From Centroberyx gerrardi (Eukaryota; Chordata; Actinopteri; Beryciformes; Berycidae), in the NCBI RefSeq assembly GCF_048128805.1, contig NC_136017.1, forward strand, positions 9,344,807 through 9,408,806: a stretch of 64,000 nucleotides of DNA. The letters run 5' to 3'. Made by a program: the position numbers and the translations under genes. Numbering within the stretch: the first letter of the stretch is position 1; every line of letters begins with the position of its first letter. The notes under the pieces are model-generated. The model worked only from the letters and a program-made list of their open reading frames with translations, made no database searches and was not told where the DNA came from. Positions 1 to 57,363 of the stretch are shown here, in pieces.

Positions 1-253
1 TATTAATATTTATTACTAGGCCTAAATATCATACAAGTTCATAAGACTGGCTAATGTACATTTATTTACTATGTTGAAGGGTTGCCCTACACCTGCTGAC
101 CCTACTCACTGCAATCAAACTAAACTGAATATACCTGCTGTATTGGACTGGTGCATTTTAGGCTCCAATTGCTACTTACACCACCTGATATTTTGCTTTC
201 TGGGGTATTTTATGCATCACTGTGAGGGGAGTAGGTGTGTGTGTGTGTGTGTA

Positions 254-318
<65 letters not shown>

Positions 319-1080
319 CTATAATAATAATAACATGAATGAAGCTCAGGCTTTCACAAATTGACTGCAGCATTTTATTTTCTGTGGTTATTTTCTTGAG
401 CAAAACTTAGCTAACTTAGGGACATCATAACTAGCCACCATATTGATTTACGTTCTTAACTAGCCATTACATATAGCCATAATTAACATACATTCTTTAC
501 TAGCCTTCATCTCATCCTGTTTTAATATTAAGTGCTGACTCCGCCCACCCGGCCAGTTTCAGCATACGCCGGTAGCAATTACAAGTGGACCCTATCCTAC
601 AGTCCCTGCTCTCAGCGGAGGGAGGGGAGCTACACTGTGTGTGGGAAGCGCTGTGACCGTCAGACCTCTCTGGATTAGACAAGCAAGTAGAGAAAACCGG
701 CATCATCCGTACCAATTTATTGCCAAATGCTTTGGGATTCAACACATTAACATTGCTTCCCATGGTCAGAAAAAGTCGGCAGATTTGTCGCTAGTCGCTT
801 TTGAGAAATAAAGTCGTCAGGGGGGTCTGAAAAGTCGCTAAGTCTAGTGACAAAGTCGCCAAGTTGGCAACACTGGATCCCAAACTTTGGACACTTTCTG
901 TCGTTTTCTCTGGCCTGTCTCTTCTCTTCGCCTCTCGCTATTTCCTCTCTCTTTCTCCAGTCCGTTGTGCAACAGTAATAATCATCCATGCGAAACACAG
1001 TGAGCATGTATATAGTTATATGGATTAAACGAAGCTTCAATGCAAAGAATTTGCATCGATGATTTTTAGTAATCGAGTTA
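1..1080. repeat. Truncated hAT-like repeat remnant with (GT)n, copy A
   Basis: Nearly identical to 18341-19410 of copy B, offset by 18,340 bp, so the window opens inside a duplicated unit. In copy B the same block starts with a hAT-type end (TAGGGCTGCAGC at 18147) followed by AATCGATTAATCG-like motifs. A TTTTTAGTAATCGAG motif marks the other side, near 1060. A GT microsatellite lies at 236-318. Open frames here are short and interrupted, and I recognise no intact gene. Copy C lacks the whole block. Confidence 0.6.
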
Positions 1081-1083
1081 TGC

Positions 1084-2520
1084 ATGCTAAACTTAAGTTC
1101 AGCCGAAGTGAAAGTTTGAATCGTAGTTTGAGGTGAACAGGAAGGGAGCAGAAAAATCAAGCAGGGGAGAAGTAAAGCTGTACAGGAAGTGATGTGACTC
1201 TGTTTCTTTATTATTATTATTTTGAAAGCATCAATAGGAATAATGGTATGAGTGATTTAGGTACTGACCTGCTTCCCACTTCATGTATCCTACAGGAAAA
1301 GAATTATAGGAAAGAATATGTTAAAGAAACCAATATGTATCACTGTTTGCACAAATGAATAACTGTGAATAGTAGGATGTCTGCTAAACTTAAGTTCAGC
1401 CGAAGTGAAAGTTTGAATCGTAGTTTGAGGTGAACAGGAAGGGAGGAGAAAAGTCAAGCAGGGGAGAAGTAGAGCTGTACAGGAAATGATGTGACTCTGT
1501 TTCTTTACTATTATTATTATTATTATTTTGAATGCATCAATAGGAATAATGGTATGAGTGATTTAGGTACTGACCTGCTTCCTGCTTCAGGGTTACTACA
1601 GGAAAAGAATTATAGGAAAGAATATGTTAAAGAAACCAATATGTATCACTGTTAGCACAAATGAATAACTGTGAAGCAGGGGAGAAGTAGAGCTGTGGAG
1701 GAAGTGATGTGACTCTGTTTCTTTATTATTATTATTTTGAATGCATCAATAGGAATAATGGTATGAGTGATTTAGGTACTGACCTGCTTTCCCCTTCTTG
1801 GTTGCTACAGGAAAAGAATTATAGGAAAGAATATGTTAAAGAAACCAATATGTATCACTGTTAGCACAAATGAATAACTGTGAAGCAGGGGAGAAGTAGA
1901 GCTGTGGAGGAAGTGATGTGACTCTGTTTCTTTATTATTATTATTTTGAATGCATCAATAGGAATAATGGTATGAGTGATTTAGGTACTGACCTGCTTCC
2001 CACTTCATGTATCCTACAGGAAAAGAATTATAGGAAAGAATATGTTAAAGAAACCAATATGTATCACTGTTAGCACAAATGAATAACTGTGAATAGTAGG
2101 ATGTCTGCTAAACTTAAGTTCAGCCGAAGTGAAAGTTTGAATCGTAGTTTGAGGTGAACAGGAAGGGAGGAGAAAAGTCAAGCAGGGGAGAAGTAGAGCT
2201 GTACAGGAAATGATGTGACTCTGTTTCTTTATTATTATTATTTTGAAAGCATCAATAGGAATAATGGTATGAGTGATTTAGGTACTGACCTGCTTCCCAC
2301 TTCATGTATCCTACAGGAAAAGAATTATAGGAAAGAATATGTTAAAGAAACCAATATGTATCACTGTTTGCACAAATGAATAACTGTGAATAGTAGGATG
2401 TCTGCTAAACTTAAGTTCAGCCGAAGTGAAAGTTTGAATCGTAGTTTGAGGTGAACAGGAAGGGAGGAGAAAAGTCAAGCGGGGGAGAAGTAGAGCTGTA
2501 CAGGAAGTGATGTGACTGTT
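1084..2520 (-). repeat. Tandem array carrying five candidate 21-nt microexons, copy A
   Basis: Tandem units of about 297 bp and about 208 bp; the short form lacks the AGTTCAGCCGAAGTG segment. Read on the minus strand, each unit contains CTAAC branch-like sequence, a pyrimidine run, TTTTCCTGTAG, a 21-nt block and then GTCAGTACC. Candidate microexons in transcript order are 2310-2290 (GYMKWEA), 2013-1993 (GYMKWEA), 1804-1784 (ATKKGKA), 1595-1575 (VTLKQEA) and 1289-1269 (GYMKWEA). All are phase 1-1 with no stop in that phase. The array lies on the coding strand just downstream of the TM exon of gene 1. Confidence 0.6.
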
Positions 2521-5500
2521 TCTGGGTGTTTTTAAGACAAGCAACAGGAATTAAAGGAAAACTCCACCCTTGGATACTGTTACACTGTTATTTATCATCA
2601 ATCTGGGATATTCAATGCTTTCCAGGAGTTATTTTGTTAAGTGTTGTAATTAACTTTTTCGGAGTACCTACTTTCCCTCAACCTGCCTCATCTACTTCTA
2701 CTGCAGTTAGTGATTTGCTGTGTTTCCCAAAATGACTTTCAACAATCTCCAGAGAATGGGCGTAAACTTGTTGCTTTCAATCAAAGGTGGCCATATGGGC
2801 ATATAAATATAGCTAGCTAGCCAACTAGTTAGTGAACATTTGGGTGTGTCTGTGATAGCGGCCCTTAGTAGTTACTGGTTACTGTCTAGTAGACTATAGT
2901 TGACTGGCTTCTGTCAGTATTTCTATGATGGATTTCATCCTGTATGATTGTTGAACGTCTTTGCAAAATTAAAGTCTAGAAAGAAGCCCTTTGCTCTTTG
3001 ATTCTGAGGGACTGACACCAAAACCTGATGTTGATCGTTGATGTTTTAGATCGCTGACATTTTTTCTGCTATCAATACCTTGCTGTGACGTCATGTTGTC
3101 TACATTTGACCAGTTTTATACAGAATTTTACAGAATAAGAACAAGACTAAGAGTCTAACACCCCCGCAACATTTAATTTTGTGGAAGCGTCCCAGCCGGA
3201 AATCAAACACAGGTCTCCTGATTGAGAGTCTGCAATCTAACTATCTAATCTAAGTGGTGAACAATAACAACAAACAAATACAAGGTACATCACCAATAGC
3301 TGTTTTTTAACAGTATTAAAGTGTTTAGGGTGGATTTTCCTTTAAATGTTCAACTTTCACTCCTCTGTCTGAGAATTCTTTAATAAGGATTTGGTTTTAG
3401 ACTTTTTACTGCTTGGAGGATTACTTATCTCTGTTGTAGAACCACACTCCTGGAAGATAATCCAACACTAGACTAATAGTATCAGTCAGATACACAGAAA
3501 TACAAATAAACCAAACACAAATGAATATGAATAATGTCAATGAAAGGCAAATAACCATTTCATTAGATAATATTAATCAAATAAATACATATTAATTCAG
3601 TATAAATAAATACAGTATCTCATGGCTTACCACCTGCTCTCCACCAGAGTATCAGCAGCAAAATGAACATGAATCCTACTCCTACTCCCAGGCCGATGCA
3701 GGCTGAGGTGAGGGAGCTGATCTCTTCCTTCAGTTTCTGTTCTTCAGACTCTACAGAAAAATAACAACAAAAACAAGTTTGTTTACATGACACACTGTTC
3801 TAGTTAATAGCTAACACCCCAATTACGATCTTATTGGAGTTTATTTTTGTGCATATTCATATCAAGATAACAAATATTCCTGAATACAGAAATAAAAACA
3901 ATATTTCAAAAAATATATCATATTCCAAATTAGAATTAGAATTATGATTACTAAAATGTAAAAGTATTCTATGCAATTAATTATAGAATTAATTCTAATA
4001 TTTTATGTTTATGTATACTCAGGGGATATTTTGGCATGAAGTCTCAGTGACAAGTGCACTGCAAACAAATGTCAAGGTGTTTAGTCTCATACTGAGTTTT
4101 AAAATCTTTTTTTTTTTTTTTTAAATGCCACTTGTTTCCAATGCAGTTTCACTTGTTTCAGGATTTTCCTTTTTTTGACAAGTGTCAATATCTTGAAACA
4201 AGGCAGAATAAGGCAGATCACTGCACTACTGTCAAGAAAAAACCAACGTGATCTCACAAAAATACGTGAAATGAACACAAACTCTAAAACAGCGATTTAC
4301 GTGTTGTGGACACGTATTATGGGAAAAAAAACGTGCCTCCACTTTTTATTATATGTATACACAATTACGTTCCTCCAACACGAATTTGAAAACGTTCCTC
4401 TGCCACGAATTGAATTACGTCTCAAAGGTTGGTTAACGGTTAAATTTAGGCAACTAAAACGACTTTGGTTAAATTTAGGCAAGTAAAACAAGTTTGGTTA
4501 AGGTTATGGTAAAGTTTAGGCAAGTAAAACAACTTGGTTAAGGTTTGGGTTACAGTTATGGTTAGGCAACTAAAACAACTTGGTTAAGGTTAGGGAAAAG
4601 GTTTGGTCATGGTTAAATAAGAAAAGCGGTTAAAAATTAAAATGTGACTTTCGGTTGCATGACCTATTGAAACGCTGGGAATCGAAGCCCGGTCGCCGAC
4701 ATCGAAGGGAACGTATACGCCCATCCACCACCCCGCCCTCAACACTAGCCACCATGCTACTTCAATGTCACACTACTTCCTGTTTATAGTCGTGTCTCCT
4801 TTACGTAACCGTTTCGTGCTGGGAAAACGTAAATGTAACACTTAACGTTCCACCAACACGTAATTAACTGTTAACATGTCATGTTCATTTCACATTTTTC
4901 TGTGAGATCAGTCACAGAAAACAGGTTGATTAATTTTTTCAATTAAGAAAAATAAGCTTTTAAGATTCAATACTACATTAAATGTGTTGTTAAAGTGGAT
5001 ATTTTTGCAGTGTGGTAACTCACTATGGATGAGGGGGTTCCTGATGGGTTCACTGCTCTCCAGACTGACTGGGTTCTCCAGCATACAGCTGAACAATGTA
5101 TCGCTAAAATCCTTCTCCTATAAGATGAGTGAAATAGAATTAGCTCAAAGCTCAAAAAACAATCACTCAGCCACATTTACTTTTAATTTTTAAAAGTGCT
5201 CACTTGGTGCCTTTGCCCTTTGATTAAAAGGAGATCTGAGTGTAGCTGAGGCTCAGCTACAGAGCAGTTCCCTGGAGCTGGAAGGGATTCAGTGTCTTGC
5301 TCAAGGACACTTCAGCAGCTTAAACCCAGGTACTCTGGTTAAAGGACAGTCTCTCCAACCACTAAGCCAACCTGCTGACACCGGTACTCGCCTACAGGGC
5401 AGTACATCGAACCGCCCCCTATCTACAATCTCTGGTCAGGTTCCAAACTCCGGATCATTCGCTCGGCTCCTCCACCCTTACAGGTCGCCTCGCCCCTTCA

Positions 5501-8500
5501 TCGCTATGCGGACTCAGAAGTCACTCATCCCGGTCGTGACTCTTCTCTTCCCTGGCACCACAATGGTGGAACGAGCTCCCCCCTTCTGTCAGAACGGCTG
5601 AATCATTGCCCATCTTTCACCGGAGACTGAAGACACATCTCTTCAGGCTACACCTGGACCCCTCTTGAATTAACCTATCTATCATGTAACAATCTTTTTA
5701 CCCCTTCTACTCTTAATAAAATATATCTATAAAAAAAAATACTCTCTGATTCTACAAATGCTACTTATTCCTATTGAAGGCTTAGCTGATGAAGACTGTG
5801 ATATACGGTCGGTTTGACTACTAACTTGTACATGGACACAAAGAAACACAGCGGTACAAACGCACACGCACACTCCGTCACCAGCATTATCATACTTATA
5901 CCTTTGTAATTTTGTGTTGCTTGGGTAACTCGATCTTTATCGTGTCTCCTTTCTTCCAGCTGTAGCTGACTGGTTCAGCCTCTCTGGTGTCTCCATCACA
6001 GCTCAGAAGACAGAAGGTCACCTCAGCATCACACCATGTAAAGACGATGGGTACAGAGACAGGAGCTGTTGTTGAGAGGAGGAGAGAAAGGCTGTTACAA
6101 TCATGATGACTCTCTCTCAGATGCACATTTTTGTTTTCACACCTGATGTTAAAACCAAGTGGTGAATTCAGGGGAAAACAACACACAACTCCACATCACC
6201 CACTTGATGAACCTGGCCAAACTGCCAACATAATACACTTACAGATGACTCTGAGTTGAGTCTGGCTGGTGACTTTGTAGTTGATCTCTGCTGTGTACAA
6301 TCCACTGTCTTCTCTGGTCAATCCTGTGATCGTCAGCTCTCCAGTTGGAATGTCCAGGTCACCGCGATCTTCAAATATGCACCAACATGGTTAGGGGTAG
6401 CTTCTCAACATGAAGTTATTACTATTATAACTAAGACTCGGGAACAAAGACCACGCCTCAAGCACACATTCAATTTCCTGCTCCACCCTATTTAAACGCG
6501 CCTAACCATTACCTTTTCTCTCTCTCGTATGTCTCAGTTCTCTCATCCCTCCCCCCAAACCCCTTTTTTCTGTCTTTCATGCTCTTCCCTCTCAGTACAG
6601 GAACCACAGGGGCAAATGATGGAGCCAGAAGACTCCCCATCAGCGAGACAGTGCCCCCACCCTGAGCCTCAATTCCCTGGTTCCTCGAGCTAACCATCGA
6701 CCCCAACTCATCCGACCCCTCGATTCATCCCTTCATCTCGACCCCTGATTCATCCCTCCACCCTCGACCCTTGTTTCATCCCTTCATTCTTGACCCCTCT
6801 TTCTCTCAATGAACTGCCTAAATACATCTCATAGTGGTGTGGTCTTTGTTAGTGAAAGAGTTCTTAACTGTTATCTGACCCTTATTTAACCAGGAAACCT
6901 GACTAAAAACACACAGTTGTCCAGTACAGCCACAGCTTTCTACTGTTGGCCACTAAGCAGCTGAACTGGAGCAGTCTGAAGTTGAAGGAAGAAACAGCCA
7001 TAAAACACTTAAATACTGTTAAAAAAAACAACTATTGCTGATGCAACTTGCATTCTGGGAGCATTTTGTGGTTTGGTGGTGTATTTTTCAAACCTATATG
7101 ACATAACGGCACGTTGAGATATTTCAGCGCAGCTAAAATGGAGTTTAATATCAGAATTTGTTTCAACTACCTAAAACAGCAACAGTAAACATCAGGTTTT
7201 GATGTCAGTCCCTCAGAATCCAAGAGCAAGGGCTTCTTTCTAGACTCACCATTTTGCAACCAGTTCTGAGAGTGGACTTTGTTAAAGGACAGCAGTAGGT
7301 GCTGAGGGAGTAGCGATTGCGTTTCATTCACCACTCCCACTCAGACTTCCCCAACTGGTCCAGGAATTTGAACTGAGAGTTTCTTTCATTCACAAATAAA
7401 TCTAACCCTAACCACTGTGCCATTTAGCAGAAATCTGAGAGAAAACAATTCATCCCTCCCATCCCACTGTTAAATCTGAGCTGAAATCACCCACTGTGTC
7501 TCAGTATACCTTTGAATTGACGGGAGGAATCCATCTGCCTTCCATCCCACTCCATGGCCAAGTCAGGTCCATGTTTCCACACTATGCTGGTGATGGGGCC
7601 AGTCACAGAGGACAAGTCTGGACTGAGGACAACACTGTCACCTACTTTCTTGTAGAGTGGTTCTTCTGCAAAGACAAAAAGTAGGGATGCCCGTGACATT
7701 TTAAATTTGGGTGTTAAGTCCTTGTGCTTTGGCAGTGTGGATCTTTGGCAGTGTCAGGGGGATTGGAGCAGAAACACTTCAACTAGGTAAACATCCAACC
7801 TGGTTTTACACTTAAAGGCATGCCTTGACATTTTGACTGTATTCTGATATTTTTCTTCATCAGGCTGTTGTAACATAAAGGGAGAAAAAGTTTCAGAAAT
7901 TGTCCTTTAGTGATCCTAAAAATGGCTTGTTAGCATGGTCATCGTTCTTCCTTGATACTGAAACACTGAAAGAGTCTCATTCAGGGTGAAAACCTTTTTT
8001 TTTTTTTTTTAAACTAGTGACGTTAAAACAAGTTGACTTGCATTGGAAAAGTGAAATCATCTCAACACATAGGAGATATTTCAAGGTATTTTAAGAAAAA
8101 CAATTTAATACTCATTACTATATTAAATTACTTCTTAAAAGTTTTTGCGGTGTCTACTCTTTTCTGTTCTGTTCCATTCTATTATGTTCTACTGTTTTCT
8201 ATTCTATTCTATTCTATTCTTTGTCAAGCCACAGTCAATCTAGATTCAGATCATGGCCTACAGACTAGTGCAGCCTGTGAGTTATTGTCCTTTCCAGTAT
8301 TTGACTATTAAATGAAGTCCTGCTGTAGGAAAATGGAAAATAATTACACTGCAACACAACATATTGCATTCACCTGGGGGGAAAAAACCAGCCCGGTTTT
8401 TTTAATTAATGACTTCTTTTCTCATAATTCTGAGATAATAAACTTACTAAATGATGATGATGTGTGCTTGTAGAGGCGCATTTCACGTGCACACTGGTGG

Positions 8501-9149
8501 ACTATGAGTGTCTGAGGGGCATTTTAAGAACGTGTATGATTTTAGTTCAACTGTGTGATAAGTGCCTGACTGTGTCTTGAGTCACCATGTAGCTATACAG
8601 CTTGAATACATTTCAGAAGCATAACCTTGTATCTGTGAAGCAGGCCATATTGGCTCAACTGATCCTGGAGAAATAACACAATGTCGAGGCCTGTCAAGCT
8701 GAACAACCCTGAAGTCCTAAGGTGGCAGCACAAAGCCGACGAACTAATGACAATGCCATCTATATTACTCAAAGACTCTAGTATCTGCAAATGTCTCAAA
8801 CCAAGACGGAAAAAAATACTGGATTAAATTAAGCAGCTGTGTCGAGTTGACCTTCCGAAATGCAGCTCTACACTTCATCATTTCAACCCGGATGTATCGA
8901 GATCGTTATGTCAGAAAAATGTCATTAATTCATAAAAGAAATATTTGAAAACCGCAGATTTTCCAGGTGAATGCAATACACTTCCGTACAGTTACAGCTG
9001 AATGTAACCCTTCACATATTTAGCTACCCTACACATATACAATAAACCTGCTCTCCACAGACTGCAATCAATAGAAACTTACGGGAATCTGCGCTCACTG
9101 CGGCCAGCAGGCAGACGCACAACTCGATCAAAGTTACAGAAGGCGACAT
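1269..9149 (-). CDS. CD2/SLAM/CD48-like two-Ig-domain receptor, gene 1 (3' end outside window)
   Basis: Minus-strand exons by splice sites and phase: 9149-9083 (signal peptide MSPSVTLIELCVCLLAAVSA), 7665-7510 and 6368-6243 (V domain, split), 6065-5902 and 5117-5024 (C2 domain), 3750-3634 or 3631 (TM), then five 21-nt microexons from 2310 to 1269. The V domain has no B- or F-strand cysteine (SVVLSPD, SGLYTAEI). The C2 half has four (TWC, VTFC, LLSC, FSC), ending FSCMLENPVS. This pattern is typical of the CD2/SLAM family, whose members are leukocyte surface receptors. The TM helix is GLGVGVGFMFILLLILWW. If the TM exon is not spliced, translation stops after RAGGKP (TGA at 3622-3620). The last tail exons should lie left of position 1. 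The exact orthologue is uncertain. Confidence 0.65.
2521..3619. other. Intron between TM exon and microexon array, copy A
   Basis: Single-copy sequence conserved in copies B (20936-22035) and C (40038-41125). I see no coding exon on either strand. It contains AT-rich stretches and a TATAAATATAGCTAGCTAGC segment near 2801 that is unchanged in all three copies. Confidence 0.5.
4249..4910. mobile_element. MITE-like element with long imperfect TIRs, copy A
   Basis: The ends are inverted: TGATCTCACAAAAATACGTG on the left, and TGATCTCACAGAAAAATGTG when the right end is reverse-complemented. Both continue into AAATGAACA. The interior holds about 40-bp tandem repeats of the TTAGGCAACTAAAACAACTTGG type (about 4430-4610). 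No transposase frame is present. Shared by all three copies, so it predates the duplications. Confidence 0.6.
5377..5735 (+). repeat. 3' fragment of a CR1/L2-type LINE, copy A
   Basis: The plus strand encodes the C-terminal end of a non-LTR reverse transcriptase (LAPQWWNELPPSVRTAES then LPIFHRRLKTHLFRL), interrupted by stops upstream. It is followed by an AATAAA and A-rich tail near 5718-5740. It lies in intron 4 of gene 1. Confidence 0.6.
6369..7509. other. Intron splitting the V domain, copy A
   Basis: About 1.1 kb between the two V-domain exons. It contains a C-rich segment with repeated TTCATCCCTC-type words (6700-6800) and no exon I can support. Equivalents are 29853-30949 and 44066-45191. 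Confidence 0.5.
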
Positions 9150-14496: not shown

Positions 14497-14587
14497 AACT
14501 CACTGAATGCAAGGAGATCTCAGCTGGGATGGAAATTTCAATTTTAGACTGTTAACGCAAGTATGTGCTATACATAAAACTACTGAG

Positions 14588-14689
14588 ATGAAGCCGCTGC
14601 GGAAGTTGTGCTTACAGGAATTATTAAAAGTTAGAGATGTGGTAGCATGTCTTCCTACAGGCTATGGGAAAAGTCTTATATATACAGTA
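14588..14689 (+). pseudogene. RecQ-like helicase fragment (Walker A region)
   Basis: The frame reads MKPLRKLCLQELLKVRD then VVACLPTGYGKSLIY. LPTGYGKS is a Walker A motif in the context used by RecQ-type DEAD helicases (superfamily 2). The coding match ends within about 35 residues in simple TATACAG repeats, and no other helicase motif follows. Copy B is cut directly after MKP, so this is a relic. It may come from a mobile element or a captured exon. Confidence 0.55.
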
Positions 14690-14719
14690 TATATACAGTA
14701 TTTAATTATATTCTCCACC

Positions 14720-15628
14720 TTTTTTGGTTTTCTCTGCCCCCTTTTGTCTGAAATGAGAAGTTCAACAGAGTCTTCATGCTTACGTTAGAGACCCTGCAGG
14801 TTGTAGGTGAGATAACAACTGAGCCTTTGCCCTGACAGTCACAGCTTATCCTCCTGGAATGCATTCATTGGTGTGTATTTGTGTACATTTTTGTTCATCA
14901 TTATGTTTGCTTGAAACATAAGCATGAAAAAGGAGTTCTGTTACTATAAAACAGCCACCATGGCCCTCACCAAAAATAATATAATGTACAGGAGTTGATT
15001 TAATTTGCTCTCAAATTGTCTGTGCCTAGTGCTGATCCTGATCCTGTATCAATATGTATCTGTTAACACATCTTTAATACATGTTGTTTAGAAAAGTAAC
15101 ACAATATGTGTACTGTAAGCAAACAGATGTATTGAAAAAAGAAAAAAAGTCTGGATGAGTTTATTAGTATTCATGCTCACAGTTAACAACTGAATAGAAG
15201 CAGAATTTACATTAATAAAAATAGAAATATATCTATACATGATTGTACATCATAAAAATGTAAAACAATACATATCTATATACACACATGCACCCATACA
15301 TTCATACTCATACATACGCATTTACAAAATACAACCATACACTTACATACAACCATGCATACATTTTAAAATGCCATAAAAAACAACAATATACAACACA
15401 AAACACAAAACAAACAAACAAAAACAAAAACAGACCCCAAAGACTTCAGCTATCCATCTTTTGTTTTGTGGATGGCTGTACATTCAGTCAAAGCCACCGC
15501 TCCAATGTTAAATCATAGTAACATCCTACTGTGGGAAATGGTTTTAAGTGCTGTAAAGTAATTTTAATCAGCTGTGACTCTGGTTTGATCCTCTGGCCTG
15601 GAAGAAGATCTTCTGGTTGCACACACAG
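14720..15628. other. 3' flank of gene 2
   Basis: No gene seen. On the minus strand, ACTAATAAACTC near 15160 could supply the poly(A) signal of gene 2. The rest is A-rich with CATAC-type simple sequence at 15280-15430. Confidence 0.35.
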
Positions 15629-18571
15629 TTACTGTTCCTGTTCTTGTGTTGTTTGGCTGTCTGCTGTCATCAGTCCCTCCTCTGCCAAATGATACAAGAA
15701 AAGAAATGTGTCACATATAGTATCTGTCAAACAGTGTGTGTTAGTTCACTGCTGTTAAAATGGTCAATAGCACAAATAGATAGCCAATCAAAGGATTATA
15801 GTACCAGTATGATTTTGCTTTTAGCACACTAGAATCATTGGTGTATGATGTATTGACTTGAATAGACAGGGACTAGAGACAGTTATAGAGTGAGTAAATA
15901 ATTATCTAGGCATATTATAGAGAAATAGGTGACCTAGCCACTGAATCTATTTTCTTCAGTGTGTTGATTGAATGTTAGTCCTGTTATGGACTGGTGACAT
16001 GTCCAGGGTGTTTCTCTTGACTCCCTTGTTTCCTGTGACTAGGAATAAGCTGGGTAAAGATAATGAATGAATGAATGAATGAATGAATGAATGAATGAAT
16101 GTTGATAGAATATGTAGTATCTTGCCTTCTGGTTGTCTCTCCTCTGTAGCAGCACGGGTGGCATTAGACTCAGCAGCCTCTGTTCATGGATTAATGATAA
16201 TGGAAGTTAACTAATGGTAATTAATCATAGAAAATGTTAGAAAAAAGACTGTACAAAATATATATAAACATTCATACATATATACAGTACATATATACAC
16301 AGCATAAAAATAATTATATATATGAAACATGAATGATGGCACAATGAAATCACTGCAATTTAATCTGGTGAGATTATAACAGTAGGCTATCATTTCAACC
16401 TTAATGATACTCAACATCAAACATGAGTCTATTTAAAAGATGAGTAAATGTACCTATGGCCAATAACAATAACATTCAATAACATAAGTATTGGTGTAGT
16501 GATCATAAGTTGATTTTGTTTTTTCATGTTTTGTTATGCTATTCTGCATTATTATACTGTAGACAGACAGTAGTTATTAGACAGTGGATAACAACAGGAA
16601 AGTCGGGGGGAGGGGGGGTGATATGGGTCATGACCTGGACTCAAACACACAGTGTTGTGTCACAATGTTCAGGCCCACTGAACCAGGGCGCCCCTGTTGT
16701 CACTGTTTTAACAGTTACAGTTTCAACATAGAGGCCAGACCCATAATTAAAAGCTGGCAGTCAGTTCTTTTGTCTCATATTCATCTTTTGATCTTAAATC
16801 TTATTAAATTGTAGTCAGCAGTAAAATGGACCAACTTTAGCTCACTGTCCCTATACTTATACTTTTGACTGTACACTAAAAAAATACTGTGATACTGTAA
16901 ATGCAGAGTTGCAGAGTTGTAATGTGTGCTCTGCATGCAGGATATAGTAACATGATCATCATTGCTGAGAAAAGCAGTACATAGCAACATCATCCTTCTT
17001 TCCACTTGACTTGAATCTAGCCTTCTCATTTCCTGCAGTAAAACATGATACAAGCTGAATAAACTGATATCTTGCATTTCCACATATATTCTTGGATGTT
17101 AAAGCTGGGGTAGGTCATTTTTTTAGAACCATTTTGGAAATATTTGTTGAAATTCTCTTTACATCCTGACAGCTATCAATAAATCAAATGCTCTGAGAAA
17201 AAACCCAGTCTCTGTGACTGTCCCAGGCCCTAGAATTAGAATATTTCAGTAACAACTAGACTGAGCTAGCAGAGCTGTGTTTTGCATAAAAGGTTTGGAA
17301 TTTATCAGTTTGACCGAGACGCCACTCGCTCTCCAGTGTAGAGTGAACCTCGCTCTACCAAGGTTTATAGCAACGTGTGTTTGTAACAGAGCTGAACCTC
17401 ATTTGGAGGGAGGAGTTACTGGAGGGAGGAGTTACGGGAGGGAGGAGTTACTGGAGGGAGGAGTTACTGGAGGGAGGAGTTACGGGAGGGAGGAGTTACT
17501 GGAGGGAGGAGTTACGGGAGGGAGGAGTTACTGGAGGGAGGAGTTATGGGAGGGAGGAGTTACTGGAGGGAGGAGTTACGGGAGGGAGGAGTTACTGGAG
17601 GGAGGAGTTACTGGAGGGAGGAGTTACTGGAGGGAGGGAGGAGTTACTGGAGGGAGGGAGGAGTTACGGGAGGGAGGGAGGGATGGAGGGAGCAGAAAGG
17701 GAGGAGTGGGGTTGTTGTATACTTCCAAATTCTTGCTCATTTCTCCAAAGTTGCCTACTCCAGCTTTAATGGATATTTATGGCAGCATTCAAAGCATCAA
17801 ATTCTTGGTGACTTGCCTGTAGCTGATGGGCTTTTGCCTTTAGCTGCATTGCTTTCTGCGGCTGAGGAAGGAAACAGAAGGGAAGGGAAGAAAAAACAGA
17901 AACATAACAGCAGTGTGAAATGAGGGATTCTGACACCAAAAAGAGAAAGATGCCTAATGTCAAACACAAAGTGGCATGGTGTAACATAAGAGAAACTCAC
18001 ATAATATCTCCCACTTCTTCTTCCAGTGGTCTATAATAGACAGGACAGTGACATTACCACACAATGCAGCACAGTGGAGGAACATGGTGACTTGGACTTG
18101 ACTATTTTTCTACCAGCAACATTTATTATTATTATTATTTTGAATTAGGGCTGCAGCTATTGACTATTTTAGTAATCGAGTATTCTACCGATTATTCCAT
18201 CGATTAATCGAGTAATCGGATAAGAAATACTTTTTCTTTATTAAAGAGCAATAGTAAATATACAAAAGAGAAAAGCTGTCCGCACGAAGCTGTCCATACG
18301 ACGCTGTGATTTACTGAAAAAGAGGTGAAATAATAATTATTATTAATATTTATTACTAGGCCTAAATATCATACAAATTCATAAGACTGGCTAATGTACA
18401 TTTATTTATTATGTTGAAGGGTTGCCCTACACCTGCTGACCCTACTCACTGCAATCAAACTAAACTGAATATACCTGCTGTATTGGATTGGTGCATTTTA
18501 GGCTCCAATTGCTACTTACACCACCTGATATTTTGCTTTTTGAGGTATTTTATGCATCACTGTGAGGGGAG

Positions 18572-18627
<56 letters not shown>

Positions 18628-21600
18628 TGTATGTGTGTGACTATCATAATAATAACATGAATGAAGCTCAGGCTTTCACAAATTGACTGCAGCATTTTAT
18701 TTTCTGTGGTTATTTTCTTGAGCAAAACTTAGCTAACTTAGGGACATCATAACTAGCCACCATATTGATTTATGTTCTTAACTAGCCATTACATATAGCC
18801 ATAATTAACATACATTCTTTACTAGCCTTCATCTCATCCTGTTTTAATATTAAGTGCTGACTCCGCCCACCCGGGCCAGTTTCAGCATACGCCGGTAGCA
18901 ATTACAAGTGGACCCTATCCTACAGTCCCTGCTCTCAGCGGAGGGAGGGGAGCTACACTGTGTGTGGGAAGCGCTGTGACCGTCAGACCTCTCTGGATTA
19001 GACAAGCAAGTAGAGAAAACCGGCATCATCCGTACCAATTTATTGCCAAATGCTTTGGGATTCAACACATTAACATTGCTTCCCATGGTCAGAAAAAGTC
19101 GGCAGATTTGTCGCTAGTCGCTTTTGAGAAATAAAGTCGTCAGGGGGGTCTGAAAAGTCGCTAAGTCTAGTGACAAAGTCGCCAAGTTGGCAACACTGGA
19201 TCCCAAACTTTGGACACTTTCTGTCGTTTTCTCTGGCCTGTCTCTTCTCTTCGCCTCTCGCTATTTCCTCTCTCTTTCTCCAGTGCGTTGTGCAACAGTA
19301 ATAATCATCCATGCGAAACACAGTGAGCGTGTATATAGTTATATGGATTAAACGAAGCTTCGATGCAAAGAATTTGCATCGATGATTTTTAGTAATCGAG
19401 TTATGTATGCTAAACTTAAGTTCAGCCGAAGTGAAAGTTTGAATCGTAGTTTGAGGTGAACAGGAAGGGAGCAGAAAAATCAAGCAGGGGAGAAGTAAAG
19501 CTGTACAGGAAGTGATGTGACTCTGTTTCTTTATTATTATTATTTTGAATGCATCAATAGGAATAATGGTATGAGTGATTTAGGTACTGACCTGCTTCCC
19601 ACTTCATGTATCCTACAGGAAAAGAATTATAGGAAAGAATATGTTAAAGAAACCAATATGTATCACTGTTAGCACAAATGAATAACTGTGAATAGTAGGA
19701 TGTCTGCTAAACTTAAGTTCAGCCGAAGTGAAAGTTTGAATCGTAGTTTGAGGTGAACAGGAAGGGAGGAGAAAAGTCAAGCAGGGGAGAAGTAGAGCTG
19801 TACAGGAAATGATGTGACTCTGTTTCTTTATTATTATTATTACGATTATTATTATTTTGAATGCATCAGTAGGAATAATGGTATGAGTGATTTAGGTACT
19901 GACCTGCTTCCTCCTGCAGGATTTCTACAGGAAAAGAATTATAGGAAAGAATATGTTAAAGAAACCAATATGTATCACTGTTAGCACAAATGAATAACTG
20001 TGAAGCAGGGGAGAAGTAGAGCTGTGGAGGAAGTGATGTGACTCTGTTTCTTTATTATTATTATTTTGAAAGCATCAATAGGAATAATGGTATGAGTGAT
20101 TTAGGTACTGACCTGCTTCCCGCTTCATGTATCCTACAGGAAAAGAATTATAGGAAAGAATATGTTAAAGAAACCAATATGTATCACTGTTTGCACAAAT
20201 GAATAACTGTGAATCGTAGGATGTCTGCTAAACTTAAGTTCAGCCAAAGTGAAAGTTTGAATCGTAGTTTGAGGTGAACAGGAAGGGAGGAGAAAAGTCA
20301 AGCAGGGGAGAAGTAGAGCTGTACAGGAAGTGATGTGACTCTGTTTCTTTATTATTATTATTTTGAAAGCATCAATAGGAATAATGGTATGAGTGATTTA
20401 GGTACTGACCTGCTTCCTGCTTCAGGATCACTACAAGAAAAGAATTATAAGAAAGAATATGTTAAAGAAACCAATATGTATCACTGTTAGCACAAATGAA
20501 TAACTGTGAATAGTAGGATGTCTGCTAAACTTAAGTTCAGCCGAAGTGAAAGTTTGAATCGTAGTTTGAGGTGAACAGGAAGGGAGGAGAAAAGTCAAGC
20601 AGGGGAGAAGTAGAGCTGTACAGGAAGTGATGTGACTCTGTTTCTTTATTATTATTATTTTGAAAGCATCAATAGGAATAATGGTATGAGTGATTTAGGT
20701 ACTGACCTGCTTCCCACTTCATGTATCCTACAGGAAAAGAATTATAGGAAAGAATATGTTAAAGAAACCAATATGTATCACTGTTTGCACAAATGAATAA
20801 CTGTGAATAGTAGGATGTCTGCTAACTTAAGTTCAGCCGAAGTGAAAGTTTGAATCGTAGTTTGAGGTGAACAGGAGGGGAGCAGAAAAGTCAAGCGGGG
20901 GAGAAGCGGAGCTGTACAGGAAATGATGTGACTGTTTCTGGGTGTTTTTAAGACAAGCAACAGGAATTAAAGGAAAACTCCACCCTTGGATACCGTTACA
21001 CTGTTATTTATCATCAATCTGGGATGTTCAATGCTTTCCAGGAGTTATTTTGTTAAGTGTTGTAATTAACTTTTTCAGAGTACCTACTTTCCCTCAACCT
21101 GCCTCATCTACTTCTACTGCAGTTAGTGATTTGCTGTGTTTCCCAAAATGACTTTCAACAATCTCCAGAGAATGGGCAAAAACTTGTTGCTTTCAATCAA
21201 AGGTGGCCATATGGGCATATAAATATAGCTAGCTAGCCAACTAGTTAGTGAACATTTGGGTGTGTCCGTGATAGCGGCCCTTAGTAGTTACTGGTTACTG
21301 TCTAGTAGACTATAGTTGACTGGCTTCTGTCAGTATTTCTATGATGGATTTCATCCTGTATGATTGTTGAACGTCTTTGCAAAATTAAAGTCTAGAAAGA
21401 AGCCCTTTGCTCTTTGATTCTGAGGGACTGACACCAAAACCTGATGTTGATCGTTGATGTTTTAGATCGCTGACATTTTTTCTGCTATCAATACCTTGCC
21501 GTGACGTCATGTTGTCTACATTTGGCCAGTTTTATACAGAATTTTACAGAATAAGAACAAGACTAAGAGTCTAACAGCACCGCAACATTTAATTTTGTGG

Positions 21601-24600
21601 AAGCGTCCCAGCCGGAAATCAAACACAGGTCTCCTGATTGAGAGTCTGCAATCTAACTATCTAATCTAAGTGGTGAACAATAACAACAAACAAATACAAG
21701 GTACATCACCAATAGCTGTTTTTTAACAGTATTAAAGTGTTTAGGGTGGATTTTCCTTTAAATGTTCAACTTTCACTCCTCTGTCTGAGAATTCTTTAAT
21801 AAGGATTTGGTTTTAGACTTTTTACTGCTTGGAGGATTACTTATCTCTGTTGTAGAACCACACTCCTGGAAGATAATCCAACACTAGACTAATAGTATCA
21901 GTCAGATATACAGAAATACAAATAAACCAAACACAAATGAATATGAATAATGTCAATGAAAGGCAAATAACCATTTCATTAGATAATATTAATCAAATAA
22001 ATACATATTAATTCAGTATAAATAAATACAGTATCTCATGGCTTCCCACCTCCTCTCAAACAGAGTATCGGCAGCAAAATGAACATCAATACTACTCCTA
22101 CTCCCAGGACGATGGAGACTGAGGTGAGGGAGCTGATCTTGTCCTTCAGTTTCTGTTCTTCAGACTCTACAGAAAAATAACAACAACAAAAACAAGTTTG
22201 TTTACATGACACACTGTTCTAGTTAATAGCTAACACCCCAATTACGATCTTATTGGAGTTTATTTTTGTGCATATTCATATCAAGATAACGAATATTCCT
22301 GAATACAGAAATAAAAACAATATTTCAAAAAATATATAATATTCCAAATTAGAATTAGAATTATGATTACTAAAATGTAAAAGTATTCTATGCAATTAAT
22401 TATAGAATTAATTCTAATATTTTATGTTTATGTATACTCAGGGGATATTTTGGCATGAAGTCTCAGTGACAAGTGCACTGCAAACAAATGTCAAGGTGTT
22501 TAGTCTCATATTGAGTTTTAAAATCTTTTTTTTTTTTTTTTTAAATGCCACTTGTTTCCAATGCAGTTTCACTTGTTTCAGGATTTTCCTTTTTGTCAAT
22601 ATCTTGAAACAAGGCAGAATAAGGCAGATCACTGCACTACTGTCAAGAAAAAACCAACGTGATCTCACAAAAATACGTGAAATGAACATGAACTCTAAAA
22701 CAACGATTTACGTGTTGTGGACACGTATTATGGGAAAAAAATGTTCCTCCGCCACAAATTGAATTACGTCCCAAAGGGTTAATGGTTAAATTTAGGCAAG
22801 TAAAACAACTTGGTTAAGGTTTGGGTTACAGTTATGGTTAGGCAACTAAAACAACTTGGTTAAGGTTAGGGAAATGGTTTGGTCATGGTTAAATAAGAAA
22901 AGCGGTTAAAAATTAAAATGTGACTTACAGTTGCATGTCCTATGGAAACGCTGGGAATCGAATCCCAGTCGCCAGCATCGAAGGGAACGTATACGCCCAT
23001 CCACCACCCCGCCCACAACACCCCGCCCTCAACACCCTTACTAGCCACTGTGCTACTTCAATGTCACACTACTTCCTGTTTATAGTCGTGTCTCCTTTAC
23101 GTAACCGTTTCGTGCTGGGAAAACGTAAAAGTAACACCTTACGTTCCACCAACATGTAATTAACTGTTAACATGTCATGTTCATTTCACATTTTTCTGTG
23201 AGATCAGTCACAGAAAACAGGTTGATTAATTTTTTCAATTAAGAAAAATAAGCTTTTAAGATTCAATACTACATTAAATGTGTTGTTAAAGTGGATATTT
23301 TTGCAGTGTGGTAACTCACTATGGATGAGGGGGTTCCTGATGGGTTCACTGCTCTCCAGACTGACTGGGTTCTCCAGCATACAGGTGAACAAGGTATCGC
23401 TAAAATCCTTCTCCTAAAAGATGAGTGAAATAGAATTAGCTCAAAGCTCAAAAACCAATCACTCAGCCACATTTACTTTTAATTTTTAAAAGTGCTCACT
23501 TGGTGCCTTTGCCCTTTGATTAAAAGGAGATCTGAGTGTAGCTGAGGCTCAGCTACAGAGCAGTTCCCTGGAGCTGGAAGGGATTCAGTGTCTTGCTCAA
23601 GGACACTTCAGCAGCTTAAACCCAGGTACTCTGGTTAAAGGACAGTCTCTCCAACCACTAAGCCAACCTGCTGCCCAAACTGGCAAATTGGAAGCATCCA
23701 AAACCATACAGATCTCTCCCTAAACAACATTGTGTAATATGCTCTGTTGAGAGGAATTGCTTAGACACAGTGCATCGATGCTGCTACACAAAACACATGC
23801 ACACTCTCATTCTGTCATTCACAGGTTTCACACCGTAGCCCTGACATATACAGTATATATATACATATATATATATATGTATATATGGGCGATTATTTGA
23901 TTTCAGGCACTTTTGGGTACTTCAATTTCTCAAACATAAAATCTCATAAAACCTTCAATTATCTGCCTAAGCTTTATTGTCATTTTGTCAGGAATCATCA
24001 TCTGAACATTGTTGTAAACATCACTTTAAGGAATTTAAAATATTTAAAAATTTTCCTAGGATGTCAGAGGAAATGGTCATTACCACCACATCATCAAATA
24101 ATTGTTTAAAACTTTTAAAAAGTAAAAAGTTAGTGCTTTTAAGGCATTTTATGTAACTTCATACCTTACTTCTGATGTCTAAGTGGTTAGAAATATTTTA
24201 ATTTGATTTAAACATGTTTTAAATCTTTAGATGTGCAACCTTTTCAATATATTCCTAGATCCTGTCAAGAAAGATAAAATTACTCCAACAACAGGTCAAT
24301 GACTCATGTTTTTTTAATAAAATGTTAAGGAAGGGCTTGTAATATTTAAAAAAACATATATGAAAATGTCTGATTTAAACAGTTTGTTACAAATTTATCT
24401 AAAAATATGTCATGTGTTGGTAATGACGAACGGTTGTGGTAATGACAAAATGTTTTGGTAATGACATCTAGAGAAAATTACAAATGTAAAACAGCATTAA
24501 ACTCATATTTCTTAAGAAAATATTCTTAAACCTTAAAACAATTCTCATTTCATTATAAACCAATCTGTAACTGTCCAGGCTAGGCTAACTTGCTTGCCAA

Positions 24601-36772: not shown

Positions 36773-39427
36773 TTACTGTTCCTGTTCTTGTGTTGTTTGG
36801 CTGTCTGCTGTCATCAGTCCCTCCTCTGCCAAATGATACAAGAAAAGAAATGTGTCACATATAGTATCTGTCAAACAGTGTGTGTTAGTTCACTGCTGTT
36901 AAAATGGTCAATAGCACAAATAGATAGCCAATCAAAGGATTATAGTACCAGTATGATTTTGCTTTTAGCACACTAGATTCATTGGTTTGCACCGGTACAG
37001 GTATCCCCAATGTCTTCTGGCAGAAAATGACTCCAACATTAAATGAGGATTGAGTGTTCATATCACACCAGTTATCAAATGCAGTAAAAAAGCCTTTAGC
37101 AATTTTTATTTGAAAATGAGAGATACTAAAAAGCAATCCCTTAAGCATGCCTGACGAGCAACGTTTTCAGCACTGATATCAAACCTGTGGCAATGAGCTA
37201 TCTGTTGAGGGTTTTGCATCGGGTGAAACTGAAGACTGTTCTACCTTAGTGACGTATTGACTTGAATAGACAGGGACTAGAGACAGTTATAGAGTGAGTA
37301 AATAATTATCTGGGCATATTATAGAGAAATAGGTGACCTAGCCACTGAATCTATTTTCTTCAGTGTGTTGATTGAATGTTAGTGCTGTTATGGACTGGTG
37401 ACATGTCCAGGGTGTTTCTCTTGACTCCCTTGTTTCCTGTGACTAGGAATAAGCTGGATAAAGATAATGAATGAATGAATGAATGAATGAATGAATGAAT
37501 GAATGAATGAATGTTGATAGAATATGTAGTATCTTGCCTTCTGGTTGTCTCTCCTCTGTAGCAGCACTGGTGGCTTTAGACTCAGACTCAGCCTCTGTTC
37601 ATGGATTAATGATAATGGAAGTTAACTAATGGTAATTAATCATAGAAAATGTTAGAAAAAAGACTGTAAAAAAATATATTATTACAGTATATATATACAC
37701 AGCATAAAAATAATGAAGATATGAAACATGAATTATGACACAATGAAATCATTGCAATTTAATCTGGTGAGATTATAACAGTAGGCTATCATTTCAACCT
37801 TAATGATACTCAACATCAAACATGAGTCTATTTAAAAGATGAGTAAATGTACCTATGGCCAATAACAATAACATTCAATAACATAAGTATTGGTGTAGTG
37901 ATCATAAGTTGATTTTGTTTTTTCATGTTTTGTTTTGCTATTCTGCATTATTATACTGTAGACAGACAGTAGTTATTAGACAGTGGATAACAACAGGAAA
38001 GTCGGGGGGAGGGGGGGGTGATATGGGTCATGATCTGGACTCAAACACACAGTGTTGTGTCACAATGTTCAGGCCCACTGAACCAGGGCGCCCCTGTTGT
38101 CACTGTTTTAACAGTTACAGTTTCAACATAGAGGCCAGACCCATAATTAAAAGCTGGCAGTCAGTTCTTTTGTCTCATATTCATCTTTTGATCTTAAATC
38201 TTATTAAATTGTAGTCAGCAGTAAAATGGACCAACTTTAGCTCACTGTCCCTATACTTATACTTTTGACTGTACACTAAAAAAATACTGTGATACTGTAA
38301 ATGCAGAGTTGCAGAGTTGTAATGTGTGCTCTGCATGCAGGATATAGTAACATGATCATCATTGCTGAGAAAAGCAGTACATAGCAACATCATCCTTCTT
38401 TCCACTTGACTTGAATCTAGCCTTCTCATTTCCTGCAGTAAAACATGATACAAGCTGAATAAACTGATATCTTGCATTTCCACATATATTCTTGGATGTT
38501 AAAGCTGGGGTAAGTCATTTTTTTAGAACCATTTTGGAAATATTTGTTGAAATTCTCTTTACATCCCGACAGCTATCAATAAATCAAATGCTCTGAGAAA
38601 AAAAAAGAGAAAAATCCAGTCTCTGTGACTGTCCCAGGCCCTAGAATTAGAATATTTCAGTAACAACTAGACTGAGCTAGCAGAGCTGTGTTTTGCATAA
38701 AAGGTTTGGAATTTATCAGTTTGACCGAGACGCCACTCGCTCTCCAGTGTAGAGTGAACCTCGCTCGACCAAAGTTTGTAGCAATGTGTTTGTAACAGAG
38801 CTGAACCTCATTTGGAGGGAGGAGTTACTGGAGGGAGGGAGGAGTTACTGGAGGGAGGGAGGAGTTACTGGAGCGAGGGAGGAGTTACGGGAGGGAGGGA
38901 GGAGTTACTGGAGGGAGGGAGGAGTTACTGGAGCGAGGGAGGAGTTACGGGAGGGAGGGAGGAGTTACGGGAGGGAGGGAGGGAGCAGAAAGGGAGAAGG
39001 GGGGTTGTTGTATACTTCCAAATTCTTGCTAATTTCTCCAAAGTTGCCTACTCCAGCTTTAATGGATATTTATGGCAGCATTCAAAGCATCAAATTCTTG
39101 GTGACTTGCCTGTAGCTGATGGGCTTTTGCCTTTAGCTGCATTGCTTTCTGCGGCTGAGGAAGGAAACAGAAGGGAAGGGAAGAGAAGAAAAAACAGAAA
39201 CATAACAGCAGTGTGAAATGAGTGATTCTGACACCAAAAAGAGAAAGATGCCTAATGTCAAACACAAAGTGGCATGGTGTAACATAAGAGGAACTCTGGC
39301 TGAAACTTACATATCTCCAACAGATTCATCCACAAGTCTATAATGGACAGGACATTGACATTAGCAGACAATCCAGCACAGTGGAGGAACATGGTGACTT
39401 GGACTTGACTATTTTTCTACCAGCAAC

Positions 39428-39464
<37 letters not shown>

Positions 39465-42400
39465 TTGAATGCATCAATAGGAATAATGGTATGAGTGATT
39501 TAGGTACTGACCTGCTTCCTGCTTCATGTATCCTACAGGAAAAGAATTACAGGAAAGAATATGTTAAAGAAACCAATATGTATCACTGTTAGCACAAATT
39601 AATAACTGTGAATAGTAGGATGTCTGCTAAACTTAAGTTCAGCCGAAGTGAAAGTTTGAATCGTAGTTTGAGGTGAACAGGAAGGGAGGAGAAAAGTCAA
39701 GCAGGGGAGAAGTAGAGCTGTGGAGGAAATGATGTGACTCTGTTTCTTTATTATTATTATTTTGAAAGCATCAATAGGAATAATGGTATGAGTGATTTAG
39801 GTACTGACCTGCTTCCCGCTGCAGGGTTTCTACAGGAAAAGAATTATAGGAAAGAATATGTTAAAGAAACCAATATGTATCACTGTTTGCACAAATGAAT
39901 AACTGTGAATAGTAGGATGTCTGCTAAACTTAAGTTCAGCCGAAGTGAAAGTTTGAATCGTAGTTTGAGGTGAACAGGAAGGGAGGAGAAAAGTCAAGCG
40001 GGGGAGAAGTAGAGCTGTACAGGAAATGATGTGACTGTTTCTGGGTGTTTTTAAGACAAGCAACAGGGATTAAAGGAAAACTCCACCCTTGGATACTGTT
40101 ACACTGTTATTTATCATCAATCTGGGATGTTCAGTGCTTTCCAGGAGTTATTTTGTTAAGTGTTGTAATTAACTTTTTCGGTGTACCTATTTTCCCTTAA
40201 CCTGCCTTATCTATTTCTACTGCAGTTAGTGATTTGCTATGTTTCCCAAAATTACTTTCAACAATCTCCAGAGAATGGGCGTAAACTTGTTGCTTTCAAT
40301 CAAAGGTGGCCATATGGGCATATAAATATAGCTAGCTAGCCAACTAGTTAGTGAACATTTGGGTGTGTCTGTGATAGCGGCCCTTAGTAGTTACTGGTTA
40401 CTGTCTAGTAGACTATAGTTGACTGGCTTCTGTCAGTATTTCTATGATGGATTTCTCCCTGTATGATTGTTGCAAAATTAAAGTCTAGAAAGAAGCCCTT
40501 TGCTCTTTGATTCTGAGGGACTGACACCAAAACCTGATGTTGATCGTTGATGTTTTAGATCACTGACATTTTTTCTGCTATCAATACCTTGCCGTGACGT
40601 CATGTTGTCTACATTTGGCCAGTTTTATACAGAATTTTACAGAATAAGAACAAGACTAAGAGTCTAACAGCACCGCAACATTTAATTTTGTGGAAGCGTC
40701 CCAGCCGGAAATCAAACACAGGTCTCCTGATTGAGAGTCTGCAATCTAACTATCTAATCTAAGTGGTGAACAATAACAACAAACAAATACAAGGTACATC
40801 ACCAATAGCTGTTTTTTAACAGTATTAAATTGTTTAGGGTGGATTTTCCTTTAAATGTTCAACTTTCACTCCTCTGAGAATTCTTTAATAAGGATTTGGT
40901 TTTAGACTTTTTACTGCTTGGAGGATTACTTATCTCTGTTGTAGAACCACACTCCTGGAAGATAATCCAACACTAGACTAATAGTATCAGTCAGATATAC
41001 AGAAATACAAATAAACCAAACACAAATGAATATGAATAATGTCAATGAAAGGCAAATAACCATTTGATTAGATAATATTAATCAAATAAATACATATTAA
41101 TTCAGTATAAATAAATACAGTATCTCATGGCTTCCCACCTCCTCTCAACCAGAGTATCAGCAGCAAAATGAACATGAATCCTACTCCTACTCCCAGGCCG
41201 ATGGAGGCTGAGGTGAGGGATTTGTTCTTTTCCTTCAGTTTCTGTTCACCTTCAGACTCTACAGGAAAATAACAACAACAACAAAAACAAGTTTGTTTAC
41301 ATGACACACTGTTCTACTGTAATTAATAGCTAATACCCCAATAACGATCTTATTGGAGTTTATTTTTGTGCATATTCATATCAAGAACGAATATTCCTGA
41401 ATACAGAAATAAAAACAATATTTCAAAAAATATATCATATTCCAAATTAGAATTAAAATTATGATTACTAAAATGTAAAAGTATTCTATGCAATTAATTA
41501 TAGAATTAATTCTAATATTGTATGTTTATGTATACTCAGGGGATATTTTGGCATGAAGTCTCAGTGACAAGTGCACTGCAAACAAATGTCAAGGTGTTTA
41601 GTCTCATACTGAGTTTTAAAATCTTTTTTTATTTTTTTTAAATGCCACTTGTTTCCAATGCAGTTTCACTTGTTTCAGGATTTTCCTTTTTTTTGACAAG
41701 TGTCAATATCTTGAAACAAGGCAGAATAAGGCAGATCACTGCACTACTGTCAAGAAAAAACCAACGTGATCTCACAAAAATACGTGAAATGAACACGAAC
41801 TCTAAAACAGCGATTTACGTGTTGTGGACACGTATTATGGGGAAAAAAATGTGCTTCCACCACGACCTGAATTACGTTCCTCCAACACGAATTTAAATAC
41901 ATTCCTCTGCCATGAATTGAAAACGTTCCTCCGCCACGAATCGAATTATGTCCCAAACGGTTAAATTTAGGCAACTAAAACGACTTTGGTTAAATTTAGG
42001 CAACTAAAACAAGTTTGGTTAAGGTTAGGGAAATGGTTTGGTCATGGTTAAATAAGAAATGCGGTTAAAAATTAAAATGTGACTTACGGTTGCATGTCCT
42101 ATGGAAACGCTGGGAATCGAACCCCAGTCTCCAGCATCGAAGGGAAACATATACGCCCATCCACCACCCCGCCCACAACACCCTGACTAGCCACCGTGCT
42201 ACTTCAATGTCACACTACTTCCTGTTTGTAGTCGTGTCTCCTTCACGTAACTGTATTGTGCTGGGAAAACGTAAATGTAACACTTTACGTTCCACCAACA
42301 CGTAATAACTGTTAACATGTCATGTTCATTTCATGTTTTTCTGTGAGATCAGTCTGGAAAAAACAGGTTGATTAATTTTTTCAATTAAGAAAAATAAGAT

Positions 42401-54851: not shown

Positions 54852-54893
<42 letters not shown>

Positions 54894-55422: not shown

Positions 55423-55474
<52 letters not shown>

Positions 55475-56609: not shown

Positions 56610-56647
<38 letters not shown>

Positions 56648-57320: not shown

Positions 57321-57363
<43 letters not shown>

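Follow-up and report, generated by a model that had tools for sequence, protein, structure and literature searches.

The cytoplasmic tails of chicken BG proteins are encoded mostly by 21-nt exons, each specifying one heptad and having its first codon split 1+2 (PMC5938342, excerpts). BG genes differ in their number of tail exons, replacement counts suggest that the tail variation is selected, and intron read-through truncates tails (PMC5938342 and PMC4046983, excerpts). The BG genes compared in the excerpted text of PMC5938342 hold 27–38 repeats with codons 4 and 7 mostly hydrophobic, and BG genes are presented there as being without a B30.2 domain. Among mammalian butyrophilins, BTN3A resembles the genes described below in that its transmembrane (TM) exon is followed by a small number of very short heptad exons, and macaque BTN3A transcripts missing a heptad have been reported (PMC6790196, excerpts).

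The window, by which we mean the whole 64,000 nt stretch of Centroberyx gerrardi DNA analyzed, holds twelve 21-nt exons (cassettes) on the minus strand of three tandem paralogues: five in gene 1 (1269-2310), five in gene 2 (19592-20727) and two in gene 3 (39512-39829), with similar introns between them. The preliminary description had claimed twelve such cassettes divided 5, 5 and 2, and all are present in the sequence. As in chicken BG, the tail exons are 21 nt long, the first codon is split 1+2 and copy number varies between genes. Unlike chicken BG, with its single V domain, the receptor here has CD2/SLAM-like V and C2 domains, and the repeats number 2–5 per gene rather than the 27–38 of the BG genes compared (PMC5938342, excerpts). 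Codon 4 of the cassettes is Lys (10/12) or Gln (2/12) and codon 7 is Ala in 12/12, and a single-copy form of the module is still seen in relatives, all of which differ from BG. The exon design and apparent evolution match BG closely, while the searches and predicted fold indicate that the receptor is not a BG or butyrophilin member. The cassette design itself is known from chicken BG; the fish genes depart from it in their receptor family, in their codon register and in having a single-copy state that can still be observed. No report of such exons in fish CD2/SLAM receptors was found among the matches listed in searches of openly licensed PubMed Central papers.

Exons and splice signals of the three genes

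The minus strand was inspected over 1-6000, 16800-24500 and 36800-42500, plus other parts of the window. Exons of gene 2 joined from the window equal P0002 (LOC139928579 isoform X2) letter for letter over 325 aa, and those of gene 1, with a TM exon ending at 3631, equal the first 277 aa of P0001 (LOC144543021 isoform X2); a 242-aa protein read from gene 1 matched P0001, of Centroberyx gerrardi, at 100 percent. Both proteins are NCBI predictions, and each contains all five cassettes in phase 1.

Each array is preceded by a signal-peptide exon, two exons that together encode a V domain, two more for a C2 domain, and a TM exon. In gene 1 the signal peptide, V and C2 exons lie within 5024..9149 and the TM exon at 3631..3750. 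A junction 3634-2310 had been proposed earlier, but a TM exon ending at 3634 fails to reproduce the NCBI protein, which is reproduced with the donor after 3631 (GTG, then GTAAGC); both ends are in phase 1. The cassettes of gene 1 read, in order, GYMKWEA (2290..2310), GYMKWEA (1993..2013), ATKKGKA (1784..1804), VTLKQEA (1575..1595) and GYMKWEA (1269..1289). When the window was searched by tblastn with DHWKKKWEIL, the post-array exon of P0001, a match was obtained at gene 2 only, and the gene 1 copy should therefore lie past the window end.

Gene 2 has its TM exon at 22050..22166, followed by the cassettes GYMKWEA (20707..20727), VILKQEA (20410..20430), GYMKREA (20113..20133), EILQEEA (19904..19924) and GYMKWEA (19592..19612). 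Beyond the array are a 30-nt phase 1-1 exon encoding DHWKKKWEIL (18001..18030), a 45-nt exon encoding SAESNAAKGKSPSAT with a GC donor (17817..17861), and the terminal exon used in P0002, which encodes GNEKARFKSSGKKDDVAMYCFSQQ and a stop (16959..17032). A possible alternative C-terminal exon, of the type found in P0001, encodes EEGLMTADSQTTQEQEQ and a stop (15629..15681). In gene 3 a 120-nt TM exon (41139..41258) is followed by the cassettes ETLQREA (39809..39829) and GYMKQEA (39512..39532), a 27-nt phase 1-1 exon encoding DLWMNLLEI (39311..39337), this last read from the sequence alone, and a C-terminal exon encoding EEGLMTADSQTTQEQEQ and a stop (36773..36825). Read-through of the TM donor would give GGKP-stop in gene 1 and GGGKP-stop in genes 2 and 3; P0004 of Centroberyx affinis ends in RAGGKP and P0009 of Myripristis murdjan in KAGGKP.

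GC donors (GCAAGT, GCAAGA) are present on post-array tail exons of genes 2 and 3, with first bases at 17816, 39109, 16125 and 37537; that at 17816 is used in P0002, and the other three are read from the DNA. Genes 2 and 3 carry tandem repeats of 16 and 20 nt (TGGAGGGAGGAGTTAC type) at 17404-17657 and 38814-38982, after the 45-nt exon and ahead of the terminal one. Elsewhere in the window, cytochrome P450 exons are located at about 52592-57626 on the minus strand, PF00067 being matched in three of the tested frames. One plus-strand frame, 14507-14785, weakly matches a DEAD-box helicase (PF00270, E 1.5e-4, which does not pass the cut-off); when the equivalent part of gene 3 was compared by eye, the matching portion (about 14603-14695) proved to belong to a short segment absent there.

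With the exact pattern CTGTAG-N21-GTCAGTACC, 11 matches were obtained in the window as opposed to 0 in 100 shuffles. The cassettes are flanked by acceptors of TTTTC[CT]TGTAG or TTTTCTTGTAG type and, on the 3' side, by GTCAGTACC. A CTGTAG acceptor had been ascribed to every unit; it is found in 11/12, the second cassette of gene 2 (20410-20430) having TTGTAG. The GCTAAC motif, also ascribed to every unit, is present in 7/12 (3/5 within 1269-2310) with its A at -57, and the remaining units lack it. TTTAAC, with its A at -32, occurs in 12/12 units and is the likelier branch point from sequence. In the cassette donor, GTCAGT, position +3 is a C, which is unusual among vertebrates, and inclusion of the cassettes may be inefficient for that reason.

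Phase 1 is free of stops in all 12 cassettes, as had been stated, and phase 2 is likewise stop-free in 12/12. Two cassettes do begin with a stop in phase 0, but stops in that phase actually occur in 9/12 and not just in those two. The first codon is split 1+2 in 12/12 cassettes by sequence and in 10/12 within the gene 1 and 2 models. Seven-codon phase 1-1 cassettes in a receptor tail, the central proposal of the earlier reading, are encoded by the predicted NCBI models of genes 1 and 2, and are supported in that the codon-position pattern, the single-copy relatives and a skip isoform elsewhere (all below) agree with those models.

P0003 (LOC144543022), located outside the window, has the same first exon as gene 3 for both the V and the C2 domain, and differs from it in signal peptide, second C2 exon and TM exon. 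Its TM exon was looked for in the window and was not found, and P0003 is probably a fourth paralogue. The protein ends GAG-VILIWKA-DR, in which VILIWKA resembles the cassette VILKQEA and is perhaps a single cassette.

Receptor family and the single-copy module

Three protein searches returned 89 different proteins. With phmmer against solved structures, CD58 (2.7e-6) and CD2 (8.8e-5) were the best matches, and CD58, CD2 and a CD48-CD2 chimera were on top. Foldseek searches with the predicted fold gave CD58, CD48, CD2, NTB-A (three chains) and CD2 as the seven best rows. A search profile built from 30 of the 89 proteins, P0001 and P0002 included, placed carcinoembryonic antigen first, just above CD58, so that the related CEACAM family is also fairly close. 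A member of the wider B7 family, B7-1 (CD80), was at Foldseek rank 8 and lower in the profile search. No butyrophilin was present in 34/34 phmmer matches, the best 60 of 210 profile matches or the best 50 of 1997 Foldseek rows. Butyrophilin/BG membership, guessed from exon size, was dropped, as sequence and fold searches lead to CD58/CD2/CD48/NTB-A. Judging by these searches and the modelled fold, the receptor is CD2/SLAM-like, with V plus C2 Ig domains.

The ITSM pattern T.Y..[VI] after residue 200 was found in 0/89 proteins; the ITIM pattern is absent from P0001 and P0002, with ITIM-like patterns in 2/89 proteins. ITSMs mark the signalling SLAM members only, CD48 and CD58 not being known to carry one. 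The residues after the last cassette number 61 in P0001 and 49 in P0002, which by length is too short for a B30.2 domain. In most mammalian butyrophilins such a domain follows the heptads, whereas here none is seen.

Teleost CD2/SLAM-like receptors (annotated as CD48, Ly-9-like, LFA-3-like, SLAM family member 9-like and others) have Ig domains as here and share the tail order of TM, WF[FY] module, xSMPWEA module and DFW stretch. They differ in copy number: of the 74 retrieved proteins with such a WF[FY] tail, 73 have a single module, and it contains a proline. This single module has the form xx[MLN]Pxxx, mostly ASMPWEA or a near variant, and is followed by DFW (in 66 of the 73); its W is conserved in 71, E in 67 and A in 64. 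When the module pattern was relaxed, 8/74 tails matched a second time, in every case at an unrelated stretch (e.g. KQQET, LPRDA). The setting of tail length by copy number, suggested earlier for this array, holds across the paralogues, with 5, 5 and 2 copies as opposed to 1 in 73 relatives; splicing, also suggested, may contribute in this species. The proline at the fourth place is present in 73/73 single-copy modules and 0/12 cassettes.

The 74th tail, that of P0077 (Xyrichtys novacula, predicted isoform X2), passes from MWFYQK directly to DFWRKQERP and is exactly seven residues short, the only exact module skip observed among the retrieved proteins. In P0089 (Stigmatopora argus, isoform X2) the module is kept and the DFW stretch is gone. 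The gaps in these two proteins would fit separate in-frame exons in other fishes. Proteins without WF[FY] (15/89) comprise P0001 and P0002, which carry the array, plus 13 whose tails are of another kind or end early. The congener protein P0006 has one module copy, and a search with the P0001 tail matched P0001, P0002 and P0006 only. The cassettes resemble the single xSMPWEA module and so probably descend from it.

The WF[FY] module also has a counterpart at this locus. In gene 1 a 21-nt exon relic encoding GVWFYNR (3429..3449), similar to the GMWFFQK module of relatives, is followed by ATAAGT where a donor like GTAAGT would be expected. The counterpart sequence, GAGTGTGGTTCTACAACAGAG, is exactly 21 nt, identical in the three genes, and has ATAAGT at the donor place in 3/3. 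Onward reading at 3421-3449, 21837-21865 and 40926-40954 ends in GVWFYNRDK-stop, a possible short-tail end, and ATTAAA is present downstream of it in 3/3 genes. A short-tail end was the first reading of this exon; the relatives suggest that it is a WF[FY] module of exactly 21 nt with ATAAGT next to it, which may or may not also serve as a terminal exon. The starting state was likely an ancestral pair of seven-residue modules, of which the first lost its donor here and the second multiplied.

Divergence of the cassettes and the predicted helix

Among the 12 copies, 10/21 exon columns are variable, as against 5/75 upstream and 2/58 downstream (flanks 7/133, Fisher 2.7e-6), the flank limits of -75 and +58 having been set after the ungapped register was seen to fail farther out, where 36/60 columns vary at -61..-120 and 10/70 at +1..+70. 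In phase 1 the variable columns fall at 5 first, 4 second and 1 third codon positions. Per-site difference is 0.024 at third positions, 0.292 at first and second positions and 0.016 in the intron at -75..-1, such that non-third positions change twelvefold faster than third positions and the latter change at about the rate of the adjoining intron. Summed over cassettes, pN is 0.241 and pS 0.042. The codon-position tests are small (one-sided Fisher 0.043 for 21 columns and 0.017 for the first 15; column permutation 0.015).

The contrast narrows away from the exons and depends on the units compared. In three short-spacer units, 17/63 exon sites differ versus 2/564 sites in the 188 nt upstream, and in nine long-spacer units the exons differ at 0.143 versus 0.058 over 250 nt upstream. 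For all 12 units in a gapped comparison the values are 0.203 for exons, 0.119 for 180 nt upstream, in part because spacers come in two lengths, and 0.047 for 90 nt downstream. When genes 1 and 2 are compared by array position, 17/105 exon and 56/1044 flank sites differ (Fisher 1.4e-4), 48 of the 56 flank differences coming from one pair (1804/20133) with unequal spacer lengths; pairs 2 and 4, picked after this outlier pair was seen, give 11/42 versus 5/418. A tree built from the introns of the 12 units alone was of mixed support and was set aside.

Some neighboring exons carry a similar excess. The TM exon differs at 0.080 versus 0.018 in its flanks (pN 0.108, pS 0); the three copies (3634-3750, 22050-22166, 41139-41258) have 14 variable columns, and the pairwise comparisons of the three genes add up to 28 nonsynonymous differences with 0 synonymous. 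The first V exon differs at 0.060 versus 0.016 (pN 0.067, pS 0.040). No exon excess is present in the second V exon (0 versus 0.007) or the C2 exons (0.016 versus 0.043; 0.043 versus 0.041), and the signal-peptide exon was left out of the comparison because its flanks aligned poorly, at 26 percent different. From these comparisons the cassette copies look to have been selected to differ from one another. Gene conversion of the introns combined with selection keeping exon types apart would look similar, and a mutational cause of the exon-concentrated change is possible.

AlphaFold2 was run on the monomer with an alignment of 30 rows, and P0006 served as a control using the same rows with P0006 first. 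For P0001 one helix is predicted over 203-294, spanning the TM segment, all 35 residues of the cassettes and the exon that follows; mean pLDDT is 70, 77, 75, 82 and 84 in 10-residue blocks over 241-290. Over the array this is close to a single-sequence prediction, as hardly any rows besides P0001 and P0002 have residues in those columns. For the single-copy P0006 the modelled helix at 208-240 is interrupted at 241-242, just ahead of Pro243, and resumes as a short one at 243-252, with low tail confidence (68, 63 and 50 for the blocks of 231-260). The loss of the module proline from all cassettes, together with the predicted break at Pro243, suggests that proline loss is what turned the array into a continuous helix. 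Glycine, a poor helix former, is the first residue in 7/12 cassettes. The hydrophobic moment of the array had no significant excess over shuffles at 100 degrees in the three genes (p 0.80, 0.28 and 0.11).

Explanations for the array

We consider the best explanation, at a probability of roughly 0.6, to be that the array consists of in-frame cassettes by which a juxtamembrane helix is made longer and more diverse in the tail of a CD2/SLAM-like receptor family of the redfish Centroberyx gerrardi. The seven-residue xSMPWEA module, present once per relative, would have become tandem copies in which amino-acid-changing substitutions are concentrated. With a helix rise of 1.5 angstroms per residue, each cassette lacking the module proline would add about 10.5 angstroms (7 x 1.5) to one helix leaving the membrane. 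Gene copy number, and skipping where present, would then set the distance of the distal tail from the membrane, and selection would vary the residues on the helix. That this represents a second, independent origin of a BG-type tail, with a fish CD2/SLAM module turned into a helical ruler under exon-confined diversifying selection and with copy number likely to vary between haplotypes, is a more tentative proposal, for which we would give somewhat less than even odds.

The helix predicted across the array by AlphaFold2, again for a monomer, could also be read as one strand of a dimeric coiled coil of BG-type heptads, its length set by copy number; BG shares the exon size, the split first codon and tail variation judged to be selected. 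Disulphide-linked dimers are a trait of chicken BG. However, codon 4 here is Lys or Gln throughout, as opposed to the mostly hydrophobic codon 4 and last codon of BG, and neither the hydrophobic moment in any of the three genes nor codon-wise hydrophobicity supports a coiled coil, which we regard as improbable. The conservation of the xSMPWEADFW stretch among 73 relatives would be accounted for if it were a docking site for a cytosolic partner, which the array would then repeat or modify. Part of the stretch is retained as GYMKWEA-DHW, formed by the last cassette and next exon in genes 1 and 2 and the same in both proteins, and tyrosine is present in 7/12 cassettes. Multivalent docking is nevertheless unlikely given that the proline is gone from every cassette and tryptophan is absent from 7/12, and that neither an ITSM in any of the 89 proteins nor an ITIM in P0001 or P0002 was found. 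Units share near-identical sequence beside their exons and unequal crossing-over can grow an array, as would suit a tandem repeat that is non-coding and has splice motifs by chance, or a tail drifting under relaxed constraint. Both predicted NCBI models, however, include the cassettes, and under relaxed drift the exons would not be expected to change faster than the adjoining intron while their third positions stay near the intron rate, which makes this the least credible of the readings and a very improbable one.

The known example of 21-nt exon arrays with apparent selection is the chicken BG tail, where the role of the repeats is largely unsettled. Because the relatives of this receptor keep the single copy, the states before and after, one proline-broken module and a proline-free array, are directly comparable. 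The natural series of 1, 2 and 5 copies allows receptor tail length to be tested as a selected trait.
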